41,425 nucleotides of DNA from Planctomycetia bacterium (GTDB lineage Bacteria > Planctomycetota > Planctomycetia > Pirellulales > UBA1268): NCBI GenBank assembly GCA_009922585.1, contig RFVE01000004.1:1-41425 (forward strand), given 5' to 3'. Within the stretch, counting starts at the first letter, position 1, and each line of letters starts with the position of its first letter. The position numbers and the translations under genes were made by a program. This document shows, in pieces, positions 2,693 to 35,260 of the stretch. Under the pieces are notes generated by a model. That model was not told the origin of the DNA. It searched no databases and was given only the letters and a program-made list of their open reading frames with translations.

Positions 2693-2821
2693 CTGTCTCA
2701 CCTCTAGGCGAGACAGTCTATCATGCAGGGGAGGCGGTTCGGCCGGGCGTCGGCCGCGGGTTCGCATGGCGGGCCGCAGGCTGCCTCGGTTCACCACACC
2801 GCACACCCCAATCAAAGGCCC

Positions 2822-3814
2822 ATGGCAGAGACCCCGCAGCGACCAATCAACCCCGACGACAGCCTGCCACCGGTCGAGCCACCTAGCGCGGCGTTTCTGG
2901 TGCAGCTGTTTCTGGTGCCCGGCCTGATTGTGGCGATCATTGTCTGTGTCTGGCTGGCCTTCCATTGGCTGGCGCACCTCGGCAACGATCCGCAGGCCTA
3001 CGTCCGCACCCTTCGCCGGGCGAACGAGGGCCGCTGGCAGGCCGCCCTCAATCTTGCGAACGATCTGCGGGGTCCCGGCGGCAGCCGGCTAAAGTCTGAC
3101 GCCGACCTGGCGAGTGAACTCGGCAGTATTCTTGACGATGAGGTGGCCAGCGGCCGCACCGGCGAGCAGTCGCAGACCTTGCGACTGTATCTTTGCCGGG
3201 CGCTTGGTGAGTTCACGGTACCCGACGCGGCTGCCCCGCTCGTTCGGCGAGTCACCGCCGACGGCGACAACGAGACGACCCAGGCGGCCGTTGAGGCACT
3301 CGCGGTGCTGGCAACCAACTTGAATGAAGCCGGCCGTTCATTCACGGACCGCAAAGCTGTGGTTCAAGCTGTGGTTCAGGCCTCCGCTTCAGCCGATTCA
3401 AAGGTCAGGAATGCCTGCGGCTTTACGCTGGGTGTGCTGGGTGGGGATCAAAGCGGAGAGGCCCTCCTGCGGCTGGCAGCAGATGACAACGCCGATGTGC
3501 GGGCCAACGCAGCGCTGGGTTTGGCGAGGCTGGGCAACAGCGAAGCCTATGAAGCACTGGCTGAATTGTTGGCAACCCCTGACATTGAGACGACAGCAGC
3601 CTCATCAGACGAGGAGCAGTCGCAGCGGTACAAGCGGGTGCTCTTGGTGGTCAATGCCCTGCGAGGCGTCGCTTCGTTGATTGATGCCACCGGTGAGCAG
3701 CCGCCGGGTGCAGTGACCAAACAAGTGGAAAAGCTGCAAGGCGACAAGGTTGCGGAGGTCCGCAGCAGTGCAACGGCGATGCTTACAAAAATCAGCCGCC
3801 TTGCCAGTGAATGA
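2822..3814 (+). CDS. membrane-anchored HEAT-repeat protein
   Basis: The 330-residue protein has a proline-rich N-terminus, one membrane helix at about residues 25-50 (FLVQLFLVPGLIVAIIVCVW), and a soluble helical region of HEAT-like repeats, seen in units such as RNACGFTLGVLGGDQSGEALLRLAADDNADVRANAALGLARLGN. These repeats usually mediate protein binding. The start is taken at ATG 2822 (MAETPQRP) rather than the ORF-track start at 2723, because the earlier stretch looks like spacer and overlaps the divergent promoter region. It is transcribed away from the lipoate ligase gene. No specific function can be given. Confidence 0.7.
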   Translation: MAETPQRPINPDDSLPPVEPPSAAFLVQLFLVPGLIVAIIVCVWLAFHWLAHLGNDPQAYVRTLRRANEGRWQAALNLANDLRGPGGSRLKSDADLASELGSILDDEVASGRTGEQSQTLRLYLCRALGEFTVPDAAAPLVRRVTADGDNETTQAAVEALAVLATNLNEAGRSFTDRKAVVQAVVQASASADSKVRNACGFTLGVLGGDQSGEALLRLAADDNADVRANAALGLARLGNSEAYEALAELLATPDIETTAASSDEEQSQRYKRVLLVVNALRGVASLIDATGEQPPGAVTKQVEKLQGDKVAEVRSSATAMLTKISRLASE

Positions 3815-3934
3815 GGTGGGTCGCCAATCGCGATTCGGCAGCAGTGTGGCAGTGACGTAAGCCCAGCCGCGGCCGGGTGCCCAAGTCCTCGAGCTAGACG
3901 TTCACGCCGGCCAGCTGGGCCAGCCGCCTCCTGC

Positions 3935-4045
3935 CACCCGGCGGCAGGATGTCGCCCATGAGCACCGATGGAAGGTCACAAACCTCGGCTTTGTGACGTT
4001 CCGCCCCAGGGAAAGTTGGGCAATATGCCCGAGCTTTCCCTGAAG
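3935..4045 (-). repeat. three-hairpin dispersed element, copy 1
   Basis: Read on the minus strand this holds three hairpins in a row: GGAAAGCTCGGGCA-TAT-TGCCCAACTTTCC (4010-4039), GGAACGTCACAAA...TTTGTGACCTTCC (3970-4002), and GGCGACATCCTGCCGCC (3940-3956). The same three hairpins, in the same order and spacing, recur on the plus strand at 19669-19780. It lies between the stop of the HEAT-repeat gene and the stop of the AroE-like gene, so it could act in the 3' ends of both transcripts. Confidence 0.75.
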
Positions 4046-4053
4046 CCATGGGG

Positions 4054-4899
4054 CTAGCAATCTAAAAATTCATCCAGCGCATCCCGTAACAGTTCGGTAT
4101 CAGCTTCAATGCCAGTGAGTCGCTGAAAGTCGATAGCGAGGATCGCTGTGGCCACCTCCAGTCCATCCACCCGGCAGGCCCTGGCGGCGGCGGCGGCCTC
4201 AAGAACAGGCGATGCCTTGGGCGCGAGTGATGTGTCGACTACGACAAGGTCTTCTCGCAGCCCGGTCAGGTCACGCGGTATTGGAAACGGCTGCTGGTCA
4301 GCTGCCACCACAACCAGCCCCGCCCGCTCCGGGATCAACAGTTCGGTCTCATCAGTCTCAGTTGGCAACAGGCTCGCCTGCCCACCCTCAATACCGACAA
4401 TTGCTTGCACCATGCTGTCACCACCGTCATGCCACGGGTCAGCGACGATGATCTCAGGCACGCCCGCCAACGTCAGTTCCAGGGCGGTCGCTCGGGCCAG
4501 CAGGCCACTTCCGATAATGACGGTGGGCGAGGCAGCGGGATCAGCATGCAGCCGCACCGCCTCCAGCAGGCCACGGCCTAATGTGAGATGGCCGCTAAGG
4601 CCATCGGGAGTTCTTTCAATCAGGCTGCAGCCACCAGCGAACTGGGCCGCAGGGCTGATCGTAGAGAGCAGTTCGGCAGCCGGTTGCTGCAGTGAGCCCG
4701 CCAGCAGACAGCCCCGAAAGTTCATGGCAGCCAGCCCGTCAAGGGCCGCGGCCAATCGTTCGGGTTGGACCTCAAGCGTTACAAATCGCCAATCAAGCGA
4801 GTCGCCAACAACCACCCGCTCAAACAAATACTGTGCCGGGGTGCCTGCCGCCGGATGTCCCAACAGCGCGATCACTTCCTGCAACGCTGGGTTGGTCAT
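4054..4899 (-). CDS. shikimate dehydrogenase-like protein lacking catalytic residues
   Basis: The 281-residue product follows the AroE layout: an N-terminal substrate-domain start (ALLGHP), a segment equivalent to FKGxNVTIPHK, a Rossmann strand TVIIGSGLLARA (about 127-137), and a C-terminal helix like the AroE end. The catalytic positions are changed. The NVTIPHK region reads CLLAGSLQQP, so the catalytic lysine is gone, and the GxNTDG block reads GHLTLG, so the substrate aspartate is gone. It is therefore unlikely to reduce 3-dehydroshikimate. The start at ATG 4899 follows GGAAGGAG. A GTG at 4941 overlapping the TPR gene stop is an alternative, and either arrangement suggests coupling to that gene. 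Confidence 0.65.
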   Translation of the reverse strand: MTNPALQEVIALLGHPAAGTPAQYLFERVVVGDSLDWRFVTLEVQPERLAAALDGLAAMNFRGCLLAGSLQQPAAELLSTISPAAQFAGGCSLIERTPDGLSGHLTLGRGLLEAVRLHADPAASPTVIIGSGLLARATALELTLAGVPEIIVADPWHDGGDSMVQAIVGIEGGQASLLPTETDETELLIPERAGLVVVAADQQPFPIPRDLTGLREDLVVVDTSLAPKASPVLEAAAAARACRVDGLEVATAILAIDFQRLTGIEADTELLRDALDEFLDC

Positions 4900-4933
4900 G
4901 GCTCCTTCCGCCAATCCAGGGGGCCCAAATCGG

Positions 4934-5512
4934 TTATACACCCTGCTCGATCACCGCGACAAATCGCGGATCGTCACGGATTGGGTCGAAGTCTCGCTCG
5001 GCGTTGGTGAGGGCTCGGAAGCGATCGTCGGAGGCGATCGCCCGGGTCAGGAAGGTGACCGCTTCGGTGACGTTGCCCGCCAGCGAGTGATAGCACGAGA
5101 GGTTGTAAGAAAGGATGGGCTCATCCGGGCAGGCGACCACACCCTGCGTGAGGGCGGCGATTGCATCAGTCAGGCGGTCAAGCCGTTTCAGACACCAGCC
5201 CAGCCCCAGCCAGGCAGCAACTGACTGCTGTTGCTCGGCAACTGCTGCCCGAAAGTGCGGCAGGGCCTCGGCGAACCGTCCTAACGCTCGGAGGGCCTCG
5301 GCCCGCAGGACCAGCGGCTCACCGCCCAGTCGGTTTTCGTCTGGCAGTTCGTTAAGCAACTCTAATGCCCGAAGAAGCAGCCGCGATAATGCCTCTGAGG
5401 GCGGTGCGTCCGGTTGACCGCCGAGTTCAGCCAGTTCGATATACCCCGAGGCCTGCCTCAGCAGCATCGCCTGCCGGGCCTTTTCGTTCGTGTTTTGAGG
5501 GGTTGTAGTCAT
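4934..5512 (-). CDS. TPR-repeat protein
   Basis: The 192-residue soluble protein contains several 34-residue TPR units, for example LRALGRFAEALPHFRAAVAE, AAWLGLGWCLKRLDRLTDAIAAL and LSYNLSCYHSLAGNVTEAVTFLTRAI. It ends with a DFDPIRDDPRF motif that is common at the end of bacterial TPR proteins. It is probably a scaffold for protein contacts. The start is placed at ATG 5512; an ATG at 5551 also exists and neither has a good ribosome site. Its stop lies just before, or overlaps, the start of the AroE-like gene, so the two are likely cotranscribed. The opposite strand carries the divergent FecR-like gene. Confidence 0.7.
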   Translation of the reverse strand: MTTTPQNTNEKARQAMLLRQASGYIELAELGGQPDAPPSEALSRLLLRALELLNELPDENRLGGEPLVLRAEALRALGRFAEALPHFRAAVAEQQQSVAAWLGLGWCLKRLDRLTDAIAALTQGVVACPDEPILSYNLSCYHSLAGNVTEAVTFLTRAIASDDRFRALTNAERDFDPIRDDPRFVAVIEQGV

Positions 5513-13525: not shown

Positions 13526-13865
13526 GCCGCCGATGGCAGCCGTCCGGCGGAAGCCGGCGGCAGTGGTGCTGCTTGACGCCGCGCAAAACTTTTAGCCTGT
13601 CCGGTTGCTGCAACTCCTGGCGTTCTGCTGCAGGTGAGTTCGCTCTGTAGAATCAACCAGCTGGGGTTTTGACGGTGCGTTTCGCGGAACAGCACTCTGT
13701 GAAGCCCGAGGCGCGAGCCGAGGGAATGTGGTTCCCGGATCGACAGACGCGATTTCCCTCAGCTTGCGCTTCGGGCTTCGAAGCACGGCTTTTTTTGGAA
13801 GCCGCGAAGGTAGACCGTCAAATGACGGAAGCAGGCTGGCAGTTGTGAGCTACCGGTGGCTACGC
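13526..13865. other. gene-free region between convergent rplU and ubiD-like gene
   Basis: The 340 bases hold the long palindrome at 13701-13779 and a second short hairpin with a T-run just after it (CGGCTT, TTTTTGG, AAGCCG, about 13787-13805), which could help end transcription. No coding potential or RNA gene was recognised elsewhere in it. Confidence 0.6.
13701..13779 (+). repeat. long palindromic repeat (AAGCCCGAGGCGCGAG family), copy A
   Basis: Arms of 26 bases, GAAGCCCGAGGCGCGAGCC(GAGGGAA) and TTCCCTCAGCTTGCGCTTC(GGGCTTC), flank a loop of about 27 bases. Two of the three deviations from perfect pairing are G-U compatible, which points to selection on RNA folding. A second copy is at 34888-34963. 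I recall very similar intergenic palindromes in planctomycete genomes. Confidence 0.8.
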
Positions 13866-18572: not shown

Positions 18573-19666
18573 ATGGCAAAAAAAGCATCTCGCAAGGCCG
18601 CCTCGGCCAACGGCACGGCCACTCTCCCACCGGTTGACCGCAAGACCCGCAAGCTCATTATCAATCTGGCCAATGAGGTGGCAGTGGCTGCCGAGAAGCG
18701 GCGGGACCCGCATCTCGATATTCCGGCCCGCAGTCTCTCGAACGTGCGGTTCAACAAGACCCGAAAAATCATCGAGATGGGCGGGCAGAAAAACCGGCGG
18801 CAGCTGTTCAATCTGTCGCAGGCCAAAAGCTACATGCAGACACTGCTGGTGGCCACGGGCTGCAAGTCGCTGATCGATCAGCAGAAGACAACCAGCATTC
18901 GAGGCTTGTTCTATCTGCTCAAGCACACGATTGAAGGTACCCGTGAGGAAACCTTTGGCACCCAGGACGAGTGTGATCCGATCATCGAAGATCTGGAGGT
19001 GACCCTCGAGAGTCTGCGGGAGGAGTTGCACGTTTACGCCAGCAACCGGGGCGGCATGGTCGGTCCGATCACGCTGATTGACTCCGGCGACGAAATCGAC
19101 TGCTCGCGAATGGGATCTGGTGGCTACAGCATTCCGTCGATCGTTGAGGCGGAGGTGATCCAGTTCAAAAAGTGTGACGCCAGCTTCATTCTGCATGTCG
19201 AAAAGGACACGGTCTGGCGACGCTTCAACGAGGATAAGTTCTGGCGGAAGCACGGTTGTCTGCTGACCCATGGTGGCGGCCAGCCACCGCGGGGCGTGCG
19301 ACGGATGCTCTACCGGCTGCATCACGAGTTGAAGCTTCCGGTCTACTGCCTGCTCGACAACGACCCGTGGGGTTACTACATCTACTCGGTGCTCAAGCAG
19401 GGCTCGATCAACCTGGCCTATGAGTCGAAGCGAATGGCCATTCCCGAAGCCCGCTTCCTTGGGCTCCGGTCGCAGGATTATGAGAAATGCAGCCTGTCGC
19501 CGAGTGTACAGATTGCCCTGACCGACTCGGACATCAAACGGGCCAAGCAGATCGCCGCCTATCCGGCTTCAAGCTTGAGGTTGAGTCGTTGATTTCGAAG
19601 GACATCAGCTATGTCACCGAGGTCTACACGCCCGAGCGACTCGCGGCGGAGGATTGGCTGGATTAA
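18573..19666 (+). pseudogene. DNA topoisomerase VI subunit A (Spo11-like), frame-broken near the end
   Basis: The main frame carries the 5Y-CAP catalytic motif TSIRGLFYLLKH with the tyrosine at about residue 114, the Toprim glutamate in LHVEKDTVWRRF, and the Toprim DxD in LLDNDPWGYYIY. It reads well to DIKRAKQIAAYP. There (about 19562-19565) the frame shifts and the true C-terminus continues as GFKLEVESLISKDISYVTEV to a TAA at 19666. About 17-20 residues following AYP are missing (AYPWF... in relatives). Topoisomerase VI relaxes DNA with subunit B, which is not adjacent. It is an archaeal-type enzyme also present in some bacteria, including planctomycetes. Confidence 0.85.
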
Positions 19667-19668
19667 TT

Positions 19669-19780
19669 TCACGGAAAGCTCGGACATCCTGTCCGACTTT
19701 CCTTGGGCGGAACGTCACAAAGCCAAGGTTTGTGACCTTCCGCTGGTGCTGATTGGCGACATCCTGTCGCCGGGTGGCAG
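19669..19780 (+). repeat. three-hairpin dispersed element, copy 2
   Basis: Hairpins are GGAAAGCTCGGACA-TCC-TGTCCGACTTTCC (19673-19702), GGAACGTCACAAA...TTTGTGACCTTCC (19709-19741) and GGCGACATCCTGTCGCC (19755-19771). It begins three bases after the true top6A stop. Copy 1 (3935-4045, minus) has the same architecture with paired changes in stem 1. A fragment, CACGGAAAGCTCGGGCCTCC, recurs at about 20045. Confidence 0.8.
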
Positions 19781-20223
19781 TGACATGGGCTGTTGTGGGC
19801 CGATGGGAGAACGACTTCGAATGTGCTGCTTGTCCGGTCGCTTCCGCTCCCGGCTTCCCCTTTCATACCTTCGTCGACGAGGTCGGGGGTGCCCCTGCCT
19901 ACGAGCGAGCTCTGGAAGCAAGCGAAGCCTGGAGGGCGAAGTGTAGCGGACCGGCAGTGAGCGGAGGCCAGGAGGGCCGACGTGAACGTCCAGCGAGTGG
20001 GCAGGGGCACTCCCGACCGGCTGGCTTTACGGCCAGGGCTGGCTTCACGGAAAGCTCGGGCCTCCAGTTGCTGGTTGGCAGAAACTGCTCGGAAGCCCTG
20101 GGATCGGTCCCCCAGTTCGTGTCGGGGGCTCTCGGAGCAGATCGGAGTTCACACGCGTTGCCGTGCAGGGCTGTCAAACTCTATCTTCAGTCTCGTCGCG
20201 TCCACCCCCTCAGCAGTTTCCCG
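19781..20223. other. repeat-rich gene-free region before the GT90-like gene
   Basis: No ORF here looks like a protein, although the ORF track extends the next gene through it. It contains GTCCGGTCGCTTCCGCTCCC at 19832, nearly repeated at 35070, and a fragment of the three-hairpin element at about 20045. The rest gave no recognisable RNA or promoter. Confidence 0.5.
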
Positions 20224-21169: not shown

Positions 21170-21294
21170 TCGCTCAAGCGGAAAAGGGCCCTGGATGGCG
21201 TTGACGCGTACCAGCCGCAGGAGGCGGCGGCAGCGATTGCCTCGAACCCTTGGCGTTCGCGGCATCGCTCAAGCGGAAAAGGGCCATGGATGGC
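21169..21294 (+). repeat. 31-base direct repeat, two copies 95 bases apart
   Basis: ATCGCTCAAGCGGAAAAGGG(CC) followed by TGGATGGC occurs at 21169-21199 and 21264-21294 with one difference (C or A before TGGATGGC). Similarity continues weakly to GCGTA after each. The first copy begins on the last base of the proposed GT90 stop codon. Confidence 0.85.
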
Positions 21295-21303
21295 CTTTTC
21301 CGC
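21273..21303. terminator. hairpin between convergent genes, possible bidirectional terminator
   Basis: GCGGAAAAGG and CCTTTTCCGC form a perfect 10-base stem over the second copy of the direct repeat, six bases past the aminotransferase stop. No long T-run follows on either strand, so it is not a classical intrinsic terminator. The first repeat copy cannot form the same stem. Confidence 0.4.
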
Positions 21304-21309
21304 GTAAAG

Positions 21310-22602
21310 TTAGCACCGTACATCGTCCGCCCGGCCGATGAGGCCGGTGCGACTGAGTTGTTTCGGTGCTGTGATTGTGTTGCTGCCTGCCTCCGTGCGG
21401 GCCATGTCAGCTGGCACTGATGGGCGACCAAAGAACTCGGCAATCCGACCGACGACCGTGAGCTGCTCCTGCGGCTCAAGCTCTGGAAAAATTGGCAGGG
21501 CCAGGGTCTCGTGGGTTGCCTGTTCGGTGACCGGCAGATCGCCTGGCTGCCAGCCGAGATAAGCAAAGCACTGCTGCAGATGCAGGGGCACAGGATAGTA
21601 GATCTCGGTGCCAACCTTCGCCTCGGTCAGGTGGGCTCGGAGGGCGTCTCGCTGGCCATCAGCAACGCGGATGACGTACTGATTCCAGACATGCCGGCCG
21701 CGGGTGTCGGCCTGGGGCAGGGTGATGATGTCAGTCAGCCCACAGCGGGCAAACAGGTCGGCGTACCGGGTGGCATTTTGCTCACGGTCGGTTGTCCAGG
21801 CATCGAGGTAGGGCAGTTTGATCCTCAGTACCGCCGCCTGAAGTGAGTCGAGCCGACTGTTGATTCCGACCACGTCGTGGTAATACCGCGGCTCCATGCC
21901 GTGAACCCGCAGCTTTCTCAGAGAGTCAGCCAGATCATCTCGAGTGGTGGTCAGGAATCCGCCATCACCGAAAGCACCGAGGTTCTTGGTGGGATAGAAG
22001 CTGAAACAGCCGATATCGCCGATGCCACCCGTGCAGCGTCCGTGCCAGGTTGAAAGAATCGACTGAGCCGCATCCTCAATGAGCGGCAGGCCAGCGGCCT
22101 CGGCGATCGGTAGCAGGGCGTCCATGTCAGCCGTCTGGCCGAAAAGATGAACCGGCATAATTGCCCTGGTACGGGGGCCAATGCGGCGGGCGACGTCTTC
22201 GGGGTCAACGAGAAAGGTCTTTGGGTCAATATCGGCAAACACCGGAACGCCGCCGAGCCTGGTCACCGCGCTTGCTGTTGCGAAAAAGGTGTAGCTCGGC
22301 AGAATCACTTCATCACCGGCCTCAAGGCCAAGGGCCATCAAGGCCAACAGCAGGGCGTCGCTACCTGAGGCACAGCCGATCACGTGGGGTACATCCAAAG
22401 CGGCGGCCAATTCGTTTTCCAAGGCTGCGACATCGGGTCCGAGGACAAACCGACCCGATTCACAGACCTCATCAATCGCCAGGCGAAACTGTTTTTGGAG
22501 CGGTCCGTTCTGCCGGTCGATCGCGAGTAGCGGAACGCTTTCCAGCAGACCGGTATTCGGCGTAGGTCCGTCGTCAGCGCCGGAAGCATGGCCAGATGTC
22601 AT
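21310..22602 (-). CDS. DegT/DnrJ/EryC1 family PLP-dependent aminotransferase
   Basis: The 430-residue product shows the full family pattern: SGRFVLGPDVAALENELAAA, CASGSDALLLALMALG, EVILPSYTFFATASAV, VHLFGQTADMD, EDAAQS, and the PLP-lysine block FYPTKNLGAFGDGG. The C-terminal part has the usual YPVPLHLQ. Members transaminate UDP- or dTDP-ketosugars, or act as sensors. It sits tail to tail with the GT90-like gene, which supports a surface-sugar role. The start is placed at ATG 22602 (MTSGHASG); the longer ORF start at 22785 would add a basic, unconserved stretch. A GGAG lies about 12 bases ahead. Confidence 0.88.
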   Translation of the reverse strand: MTSGHASGADDGPTPNTGLLESVPLLAIDRQNGPLQKQFRLAIDEVCESGRFVLGPDVAALENELAAALDVPHVIGCASGSDALLLALMALGLEAGDEVILPSYTFFATASAVTRLGGVPVFADIDPKTFLVDPEDVARRIGPRTRAIMPVHLFGQTADMDALLPIAEAAGLPLIEDAAQSILSTWHGRCTGGIGDIGCFSFYPTKNLGAFGDGGFLTTTRDDLADSLRKLRVHGMEPRYYHDVVGINSRLDSLQAAVLRIKLPYLDAWTTDREQNATRYADLFARCGLTDIITLPQADTRGRHVWNQYVIRVADGQRDALRAHLTEAKVGTEIYYPVPLHLQQCFAYLGWQPGDLPVTEQATHETLALPIFPELEPQEQLTVVGRIAEFFGRPSVPADMARTEAGSNTITAPKQLSRTGLIGRADDVRC

Positions 22603-23063
22603 TGCCGCAGATTCTCCGCAGGGAGTCGGGGTGCCACGACTGGTTGACCAATCGTGTGGTTTTGAAGGAATCGTCACAATCGGCCCAGGTACTCCAATCC
22701 GTTTTTTACGGGAACCCGCCCGGCGATGGGCCGTCGGCCAGCGGATTGGAAAGGGTGAGTAGTGCTCCGCTGGTAGGGCTGTCAAGGTCAGGGGCAGCCT
22801 TCCGGGGAGGGCAGGGAGCCGGTTGGCAGGCCATGGTGTTTGACAAGAGAAGGGAAGCCGTCTTACATTTCAGGGTGGTTTCGGCAATTTTTGCCGAGCA
22901 AGTGCGTCTTTTGCCTGTTCGTGAGTCTGCTCTTGGCTATCCCCAGCAGTCGGTTTTGTCGGTCTTTGCTGTGGGAGATGGTCTGCCTTGGCAGCCCGGG
23001 ATACCGGTTGCCGTTTCGGCAGGATCAGGCAAGGCTGCTCGGGGTTTGAAACGGCGGGAAGCA
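22603..23063. other. divergent intergenic region before tex, leader of about 190 bases
   Basis: The 461 bases separate the aminotransferase and tex starts. The tex frame stays open throughout (ORF track 22596), but its translation shows no domain. One good promoter lies at 22840-22869. Downstream of it is a T-rich leader with a small stem CGGCAATTTTTGCCG near 22884. Nothing else recognised. Confidence 0.5.
22840..22869 (+). promoter_or_regulatory. probable sigma-70-type promoter for tex
   Basis: A perfect TTGACA (22840-22845) is followed after 18 bases by TACATT, or after 17 by TTACAT. It would produce a leader of roughly 190 bases before the tex ATG at 23064, and it argues against translation from the upstream ORF start. 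Confidence 0.5.
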
Positions 23064-34789: not shown

Positions 34790-35260
34790 CGGTGGTTTGG
34801 GCACCCACGAAGGCAGGCGGAATGTGTGTGGATGATTGGCTTGGCAGCCTTCGGGCGCAAGTTTTGCTGGTGCGACCGAACTCCGGAAAGCCCGAGGCGC
34901 GAGCCGAGGGAATTCGCACCGGGGGCAGACTAAGCGGCTTTCCTCAGCTTGCGCTTCGGGCTTCTAAGAATGGGCTTTTCTGCTGGAAGACGCGAGTCCC
35001 GCACCATCATAAAGTCGTAAGCCGGGGGATCAGCAGTGCGCGTTGCAGTCGGAAGCGAGCATGCTGCCAGTCCAGTCGCTTCCGCTCCTGACTTCCTGGG
35101 GTGGCCGACTGTAAGGCGAGCGCTTCCCCTGGCTTCCCCTGATTGCCCCGCCTGACAATGCGGTCGGTCTTGCGGCGAGGAGACGGGGACGCGACTATCC
35201 CGCCGCAGGGTCTGCCGCAGGCGGTGGTAGCCGGCGTGAAACGTCAGGAGACGGAGTGTC
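34790..35260. other. gene-free region with palindromic repeat between aguA and doxX
   Basis: The 471 bases contain palindrome copy B (34888-34963). They also hold GTCCAGTCGCTTCCGCTCCT at 35070, a near-copy of 19832, which pairs with GGAAGCGA at 35051 as an inverted repeat. No ORF in the track here shows domain-like sequence. Confidence 0.55.
34888..34963 (+). repeat. long palindromic repeat (AAGCCCGAGGCGCGAG family), copy B
   Basis: The left arm AAGCCCGAGGCGCGAGCCGA(GGGAA) is identical to copy A, and the right arm TTCCTCAGCTTGCGCTTCGG(GCTT) nearly so. The loop has diverged in sequence but is similar in length. The conserved arms and variable loop point to selection on the stem. Confidence 0.8.

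Follow-up and report, generated by a model that had tools for sequence, protein, structure and literature searches.

The window analysed here, the whole stretch of 41,425 nt, holds three copies of a palindromic element of about 105-115 bp: two that are closely alike, a and b, and one of a divergent subfamily, c. Copy b (19668-19780, + strand) follows the gene for topoisomerase VI subunit A (18573-19666, +), copy a (3931-4044, - strand) follows a shikimate-dehydrogenase-like gene (4054-4941, -) that is convergent with a HEAT-repeat gene (2723-3814, +), and copy c (21204-21308, -), detected with a covariance model (E 4.6e-12, filters off), starts 1 nt past the TAA of a gene for a DegT/DnrJ/EryC1-type aminotransferase (21310-22785, -). 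An initial annotation had recognised a and b and placed them directly after gene ends. Both copies exist, inverted relative to each other and with 83% mean column identity (their inverted arms are 83 nt long and 89% alike). The placement is exact for b, which begins 1 nt past a TAA stop (19664-19666) when account is taken of a frame break near 19565, and looser for a, which lies 9 nt past the TAG at 4056-4054. At the break, about 55 nt that are present in orthologs of the topoisomerase gene are absent, through either a real mutation or an assembly error.

In the direction of the gene that precedes it, the element runs TTCACG, hairpin H1, CTTGG, hairpin H2, a spacer and hairpin H3. The hairpins lie at 19673-19702, 19707-19743 and 19755-19771 in copy b and at 4010-4039, 3968-4004 and 3940-3956 in copy a; copy c has GCGGAAAAGGCCATCCATGGCCCTTTTCCGC as stem 1 and GCCAAGG as the loop of stem 2. 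Conserved bases are mostly unpaired, namely the leading TTCACG, the CATCC tips of H1 and H3, the CTTGG linker between H1 and H2, and the H2 loop GCC(A/G)AGG. The replacement of GGACA/TGTCC by GGGCA/TGCCC in stem 1, described in the initial annotation, is real, as is the unpaired C of both copies (19679 in b, 4033 in a). In copy a, one stem-1 pair is broken, with C facing A, and the foot of stem 2 is damaged. Hairpin folding of copies a and b was much better than that of dinucleotide shuffles (z about -4.9 and -5.0) on both strands, as it must be for palindromes, and a 25-base stem-2 pattern with 3 mismatches allowed gave 2 matches in the window against 0 expected. A pseudoknot between the CTTGG junction and CCAAGG of the H2 loop was rejected: by eye several copies do not keep it, and with hardly any linker the 15-bp stem is too long to be bridged. 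Rfam searches at gathering and relaxed thresholds returned no relevant match, and our literature search found no earlier description of the element.

Other repeats accompany the element. Module B (19825-20020, +), a long imperfect hairpin of the form GTCCGGTCGCTTCC...GGAAGCAAGCGAAGCC...GCGGACCGGCAG, often lies downstream of it, in this genome and in other genera; module B occupies about 20 places in the genome and recurs in the window at 35062-35096. Beyond it, at 20044-20068 (+), lies a remnant of a further copy that comprises the 5' arm of H1 alone, with CTGGC just before it. A third dispersed repeat, family C (GAAGCCCGAGGCGCGAGCCGAGGGAAT ... TTCCCTCAGCTTGCGCTTCGGGCTTC), occurs at 13689-13797 and 34875-34982. 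Several array ends (downstream flanks of loci L004, L018 and L013, on contigs C118, C610 and C84, respectively) also have in common a module with the sequence GTTCGGCACGGATGCTGTGTCGTTTTTGAGG or a near match to it, and its T-run could mark a terminator.

Copy number and family range

The window's own assembly, G000, spans 3.38 Mb in 616 contigs and is 90% complete. There were 50 BLAST matches in this assembly, some 25 of which were long. A first covariance model, built from 17 own-genome copies, found the element in 20 of 59 relatives, all 20 in one family of freshwater Pirellulales, and in 0 of 23 genomes from other families of the order. A second model, built from 37 copies from many genera and applied at E<=0.001, gave lower bounds of at least 53 copies in G000, at least 41 in its congener G009 and at least 62 in G011, which belongs to another genus; the low-GC congener G005 gave 0 copies. 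Among the 9 candidates scored per genome in a phylum-wide search there was no match beyond the own genome, which is weak evidence. The initial annotation had proposed a covariance-model search of this and related genomes, with only two copies and no covariation as the outcome that would count against the element; the search instead returned the tens of copies given above and strong covariation across one family.

Copies often lie near contig ends of the 616-contig assembly, as an assembly artefact might. However, independent assemblies of many species hold the element, with E-values that reach 1e-27, and these multi-genome matches refute chance similarity or artefact, the probability of which we regard as negligible.

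The arms are genus-specific while the architecture recurs across the family. Copies cluster (21 matches in a 400-kb sample of G011 fall in a handful of clusters) and form head-to-tail arrays with exact units as well as mosaic arrays with modules B and C. Truncated half-copies are followed by whole copies. Within the window's genus (G000-G009) the element was found in G000, G004 and G009, with no copy found in G001-G003 and G005-G008; by eye, this element-free group is lower in GC.

Placement at stop codons and the 5' motif

We examined placement for leading copies preceded by an open frame of 100 codons or more. They have the same orientation as the gene before them and start exactly 1 base past its stop codon in 13/32 cases in G000, 14/23 in G009 and 12/39 in G011. 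Copy b belongs with these when the break in its gene is taken into account. Among 44 such stop+1 copies from the three genomes, the stop is preceded by C in 38 and followed by a pyrimidine in 42, as compared with 41% and 62%, respectively, at 197 ordinary G011 gene ends (p 6e-10 for the C before, 4e-7 for the pyrimidine after). TAG makes up half of the stops at these 44 copies from three genomes versus 16% in the background, which is from G011 only. The junction motif is thus C-T-R-R-Y, that is, C plus stop plus pyrimidine, with CTAG preferred; in the window, TAA and T right before the TTCACG of copy b (19664-19667, +) form its stop-plus-pyrimidine part. Copies off stop codons tend to C-T-N-R-Y (CTAGC, CTGGC, CTTGC, CTCGC), and CTATT was also seen.

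The commonest junction is a rare sequence. The 400-kb sample of G011 contains 76 CTAGY sites where about 1,120 are predicted, a ~15-fold shortage, yet this is the pentamer most often found beside the element. In the same sample (loci L195-L214), CTAAY is about 10-fold rarer than base composition predicts. By our estimate about 18% of extragenic C-T-R-R-Y sites in the G011 sample are sense stops, so that a target motif together with exclusion from genes would explain much, although not all, of the placement at stop codons. A fixed short sequence lies right 5' of the left end, where it may serve as an insertion target. We found no consistent 3' motif at single copies. Nor did we see a clean recent insertion matched by an exact empty site, so the element ends given here are putative. 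If the motif does direct insertion, it is a short sequence that would tie the element's choice of insertion site to stop codons.

The same placement is what would be expected of a functional RNA element at 3' ends, whose hairpins would act in the transcript as a terminator, a block to 3' exonucleases or a sensor of terminating ribosomes, with selection keeping it at particular genes. Leading copies lie on the sense strand, often 1 nt past the stop, and next genes rarely follow close behind. Against this, the 5' motif is also present at copies off stop codons, and by our estimate only about 2-3% of G011 genes carry the element. A purely translational signal at stop+1 is weakened by these non-stop copies with the same kind of pentamer and by the preference for CTAG. 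Among the alternatives to a mobile DNA repeat, a regulatory or terminator function in RNA is the strongest, but we consider it unlikely. In G011, the gene directly upstream of one copy (L084 / L129, contig C17) encodes not a protein but tRNA-Arg.

Covariation without a wobble preference

The two arms of each hairpin change together. In the alignment of 17 own-genome copies, which was not fitted to a model, standard pairs fill 94.5% of pair cells, and both sides have changed in 67 cells against 21.8 after shuffling. In the alignment of 37 copies from many genera, which was fitted to the model and thus leans to structure, 95.2% of pair cells are paired, 31 of 35 pairs show double changes, and the cross-genus covariation score is 0.641 versus 0.146 for shuffled alignments and at most 0.117 for slid partners. 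Together with loops that are conserved while the stems covary, such a pattern would ordinarily be read as a structured RNA.

A selected RNA helix is expected to tolerate G.U in preference to A.C. This preference is absent in 144 copies from three genomes, with rows aligned by the model: mismatch cells number 88 for G.T and 111 for A.C (binomial p 0.12 for the difference), and the sense strand has no excess of G.U. G.T makes up 1.9% of element cells versus 7.9% in 24 tRNAs from the same loci, a comparison in which only the G.U percentage is a fair contrast, since the tRNA structures are ARAGORN brackets that may not mark A.C. Because G.U is no commoner than A.C, and rarer than in tRNAs, the paired changes are not evidence for RNA function. 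There is no T-tract past any hairpin, except where H1's own arm supplies one; the upper H1 of copy b is terminator-like in score only because its own lower arm holds Ts. The initial annotation had left open whether the copies were a structured RNA or a mobile palindromic unit. The paired changes cannot be used for the first half of that suggestion, and the second half is better supported, by the many copies, tandem arrays, genus-specific subfamilies dispersed through genomes and 5' junction motif.

The covariation thus does not indicate selection on an RNA fold, and a DNA palindrome fits it better. Template-switch correction of imperfect palindromes is a known route to complementary arms, and the paired changes fit a palindrome maintained in DNA either in this way or through replacement by other copies. 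Strong covariation is usually good evidence of a structured RNA; here it is strong yet comes without a wobble preference, which points to maintenance at the DNA level, and we suggest the count of G.U against A.C as a simple test in covariation-based RNA discovery.

Correction of this kind could in principle suffice by itself. The palindromes would then be ancient, inherited vertically at each gene end, never mobile, and perfect only through template-switch (quasipalindrome) correction. The double changes with almost no wobble intermediates are consistent with such a history, as are a paired change from A-T to G-C at one site between two close species and an H2 sequence specific to the topoisomerase VI-A locus (see below). 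However, same-genome copies at different loci are up to 93% alike and nearer to each other than to orthologs, which needs copying between loci and makes a wholly vertical origin highly improbable.

Shared gene ends, sequence turnover and probable mobility

Gene ends that bear the element in more than one genome were found by comparing the upstream proteins. G000 and G009 have 6 such ends in common against about 0.3 expected, by our estimate for 34 x 25 copies in genomes of about 3,000 genes. Although G000 and G011 belong to different genera, they have 3 such ends in common, besides a further match that at 27% identity appears to be a paralog; for G009 and G011 the number is 2. At all 6 ends common to G000 and G009, the G000 copy resembles copies at other loci of the same genome more than it does its ortholog, with identities of, for example, 93% versus 77%, 86% versus 65% and 93% versus 73%; the G009 partners are likewise nearer to same-genome copies, one case being equal. 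An element thus persists at these gene ends across genera even as one sequence gives way to another. The half-copies that stand before whole copies, together with the head-to-tail arrays, may show a route by which this turnover takes place.

The end of the topoisomerase VI-A gene departs in part from this behaviour. The element, or a clear part of it, lies right past the stop in 20 of the 34 family genomes for which sequence beyond the stop was available and in 0 of 45 outside the family, as counted by eye and with the model and with the family assigned by identity and tree position rather than by named taxon. On the tree, its presence there needs 7 changes versus 12.9 when shuffled. Three copies at this locus, L141 (in G011), L246 and L252, share an H2 of the form GCATTCGGAGCCGC...GCGGCTCGAATGC, and a fourth (L269) has its outer part with a different H1; this H2 was not found in any other copy compared. 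The element at this locus is conserved about as well as the coding sequence, which the flank beyond is not. The locus-specific H2 and the coding-like conservation imply that the topoisomerase VI-A copy is partly vertical and may be selected, and the conservation looks more like the mark of a selected function than of plain parasitism. An RNA role is most plausible here, where occupation of the same gene ends across genera and conservation of the element, though not of its flank, speak for it; against it, congeners lack the element at the same genes.

Hairpins with a bulged base, a short target-like 5' motif, head-to-tail arrays and the lack of obvious terminal inverted repeats would all suit a non-autonomous derivative of IS200/IS605 or RAYT (HUH, Y1) elements, in which a Y1 transposase would cut beside C-T-R-R-Y and move the REP-like hairpins. 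Planctomycetes are among the bacteria with class 3 Y1 (HUH) proteins, whose hairpins are reported to be atypical, to reach high copy number at times, and to have a CnGA foot (PMC6006769). The junction of the present element is instead C-T-R-R-Y, and its genus yielded no such enzyme: Y1_Tnp was found in 0 of 10 genomes and a RAYT match in 0 of 5, although drafts can miss genes. For the other genera of the family, our cross-tabulation gives 9 cases with both element and Y1 transposase, 8 with the element only, 5 with the transposase only and 4 with neither, so that presence of the element does not follow presence of the transposase, and the 113 kb around Y1 genes in the family contain 4 element matches, about as density predicts and no more than chance. 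RAYT-like proteins of other genera (genomes G020, G035 and G027) score below the curated cut-off. The G020 gene (L320, 1024-1716) has an element copy about 125 nt upstream, but this copy equally follows closely on the end of the gene before it; the G035 gene (L321) sits among GTAGGACAGGC palindromes of the GTAG(GACAGGC) type, an ordinary REP system distinct from the element, which itself lacks the GTAG/CGTC tag. Taken together, these results make a Y1-driven derivative very doubtful. An IS110 transposase was also dismissed as a candidate, being a single gene found only in the own genome among 12 tested.

The closest resemblance is to REP and BIME sequences in the broad sense. As in these, short extragenic palindromes are present in tens of copies at 3' gene ends (the copy numbers in the three genomes are given above) and build mosaic arrays, here with modules B and C, and their arms vary between subfamilies while pairing is kept. 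The element differs in consisting of three unlike hairpins in fixed order and mostly in one orientation to the gene, in its exact stop+1 placement and C-T-R-R-Y junction, and in having no RAYT found in its genus. REP superfamilies tagged with GTAG or CGTC are likewise extragenic and near the 3' end of the upstream gene, and their termini are able to supply the stop codon (PMC3733652). In the present element, neither GTAG nor CGTC is found at the hairpin foot, where C-T-R-R-Y is followed by TTCACG, and the stop of the topoisomerase VI-A gene is the gene's own, its position being kept with and without the element. Membership in the tagged REP superfamilies or in IS200/IS605 is not supported by these tests. 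Palindrome-associated transposable elements (PATEs), which are palindrome-bearing non-autonomous repeats, are longer and tied to IS200/IS605 ends. Integron attC sites are also hairpins of conserved structure and variable sequence that lie right after stop codons and have unpaired bases, but the host genes here are conserved chromosomal genes rather than cassettes, and inspection of the element alignments and consensus found no GTTRRRY/RYYYAAC cores.

We therefore favour, with a probability of about 0.6, a REP/BIME-like composite palindromic DNA repeat that spreads within the genome and has an insertion-target-like 5' motif. Its mode of action is likely that of a mobile palindrome of the REP type, and it may have a secondary function at the ends of transcripts. 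Such a repeat would spread, presumably by transposition, as a DNA palindrome, with recognition probably of the hairpin or of the single strand. New copies would land beside C-T-R-R-Y, with CTAG preferred, a sequence that outside genes is often C-stop-pyrimidine, and tandem and truncated copies would then build arrays. Older copies would be lost or overwritten, leaving the gene end with an element while its sequence turns over, and the arms would stay complementary through DNA-level processes, namely replacement by other copies and probably template-switch correction. A bolder proposal, which we make tentatively and expect to fail sooner than to hold, is that machinery other than a known HUH/REP transposase recognises C plus stop plus pyrimidine at gene ends, keeps a three-hairpin DNA element there and continually overwrites it with the sequence of copies at other loci of the genome, the resulting DNA-level covariation mimicking a structured RNA.

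In four loci past the topoisomerase VI-A stop (L244, L257, L259 and L266), a palindrome of the GACAGGC-GNAT-GCCTGTC type interrupts H1 near its tip, as if palindromes served as targets for other palindromes.
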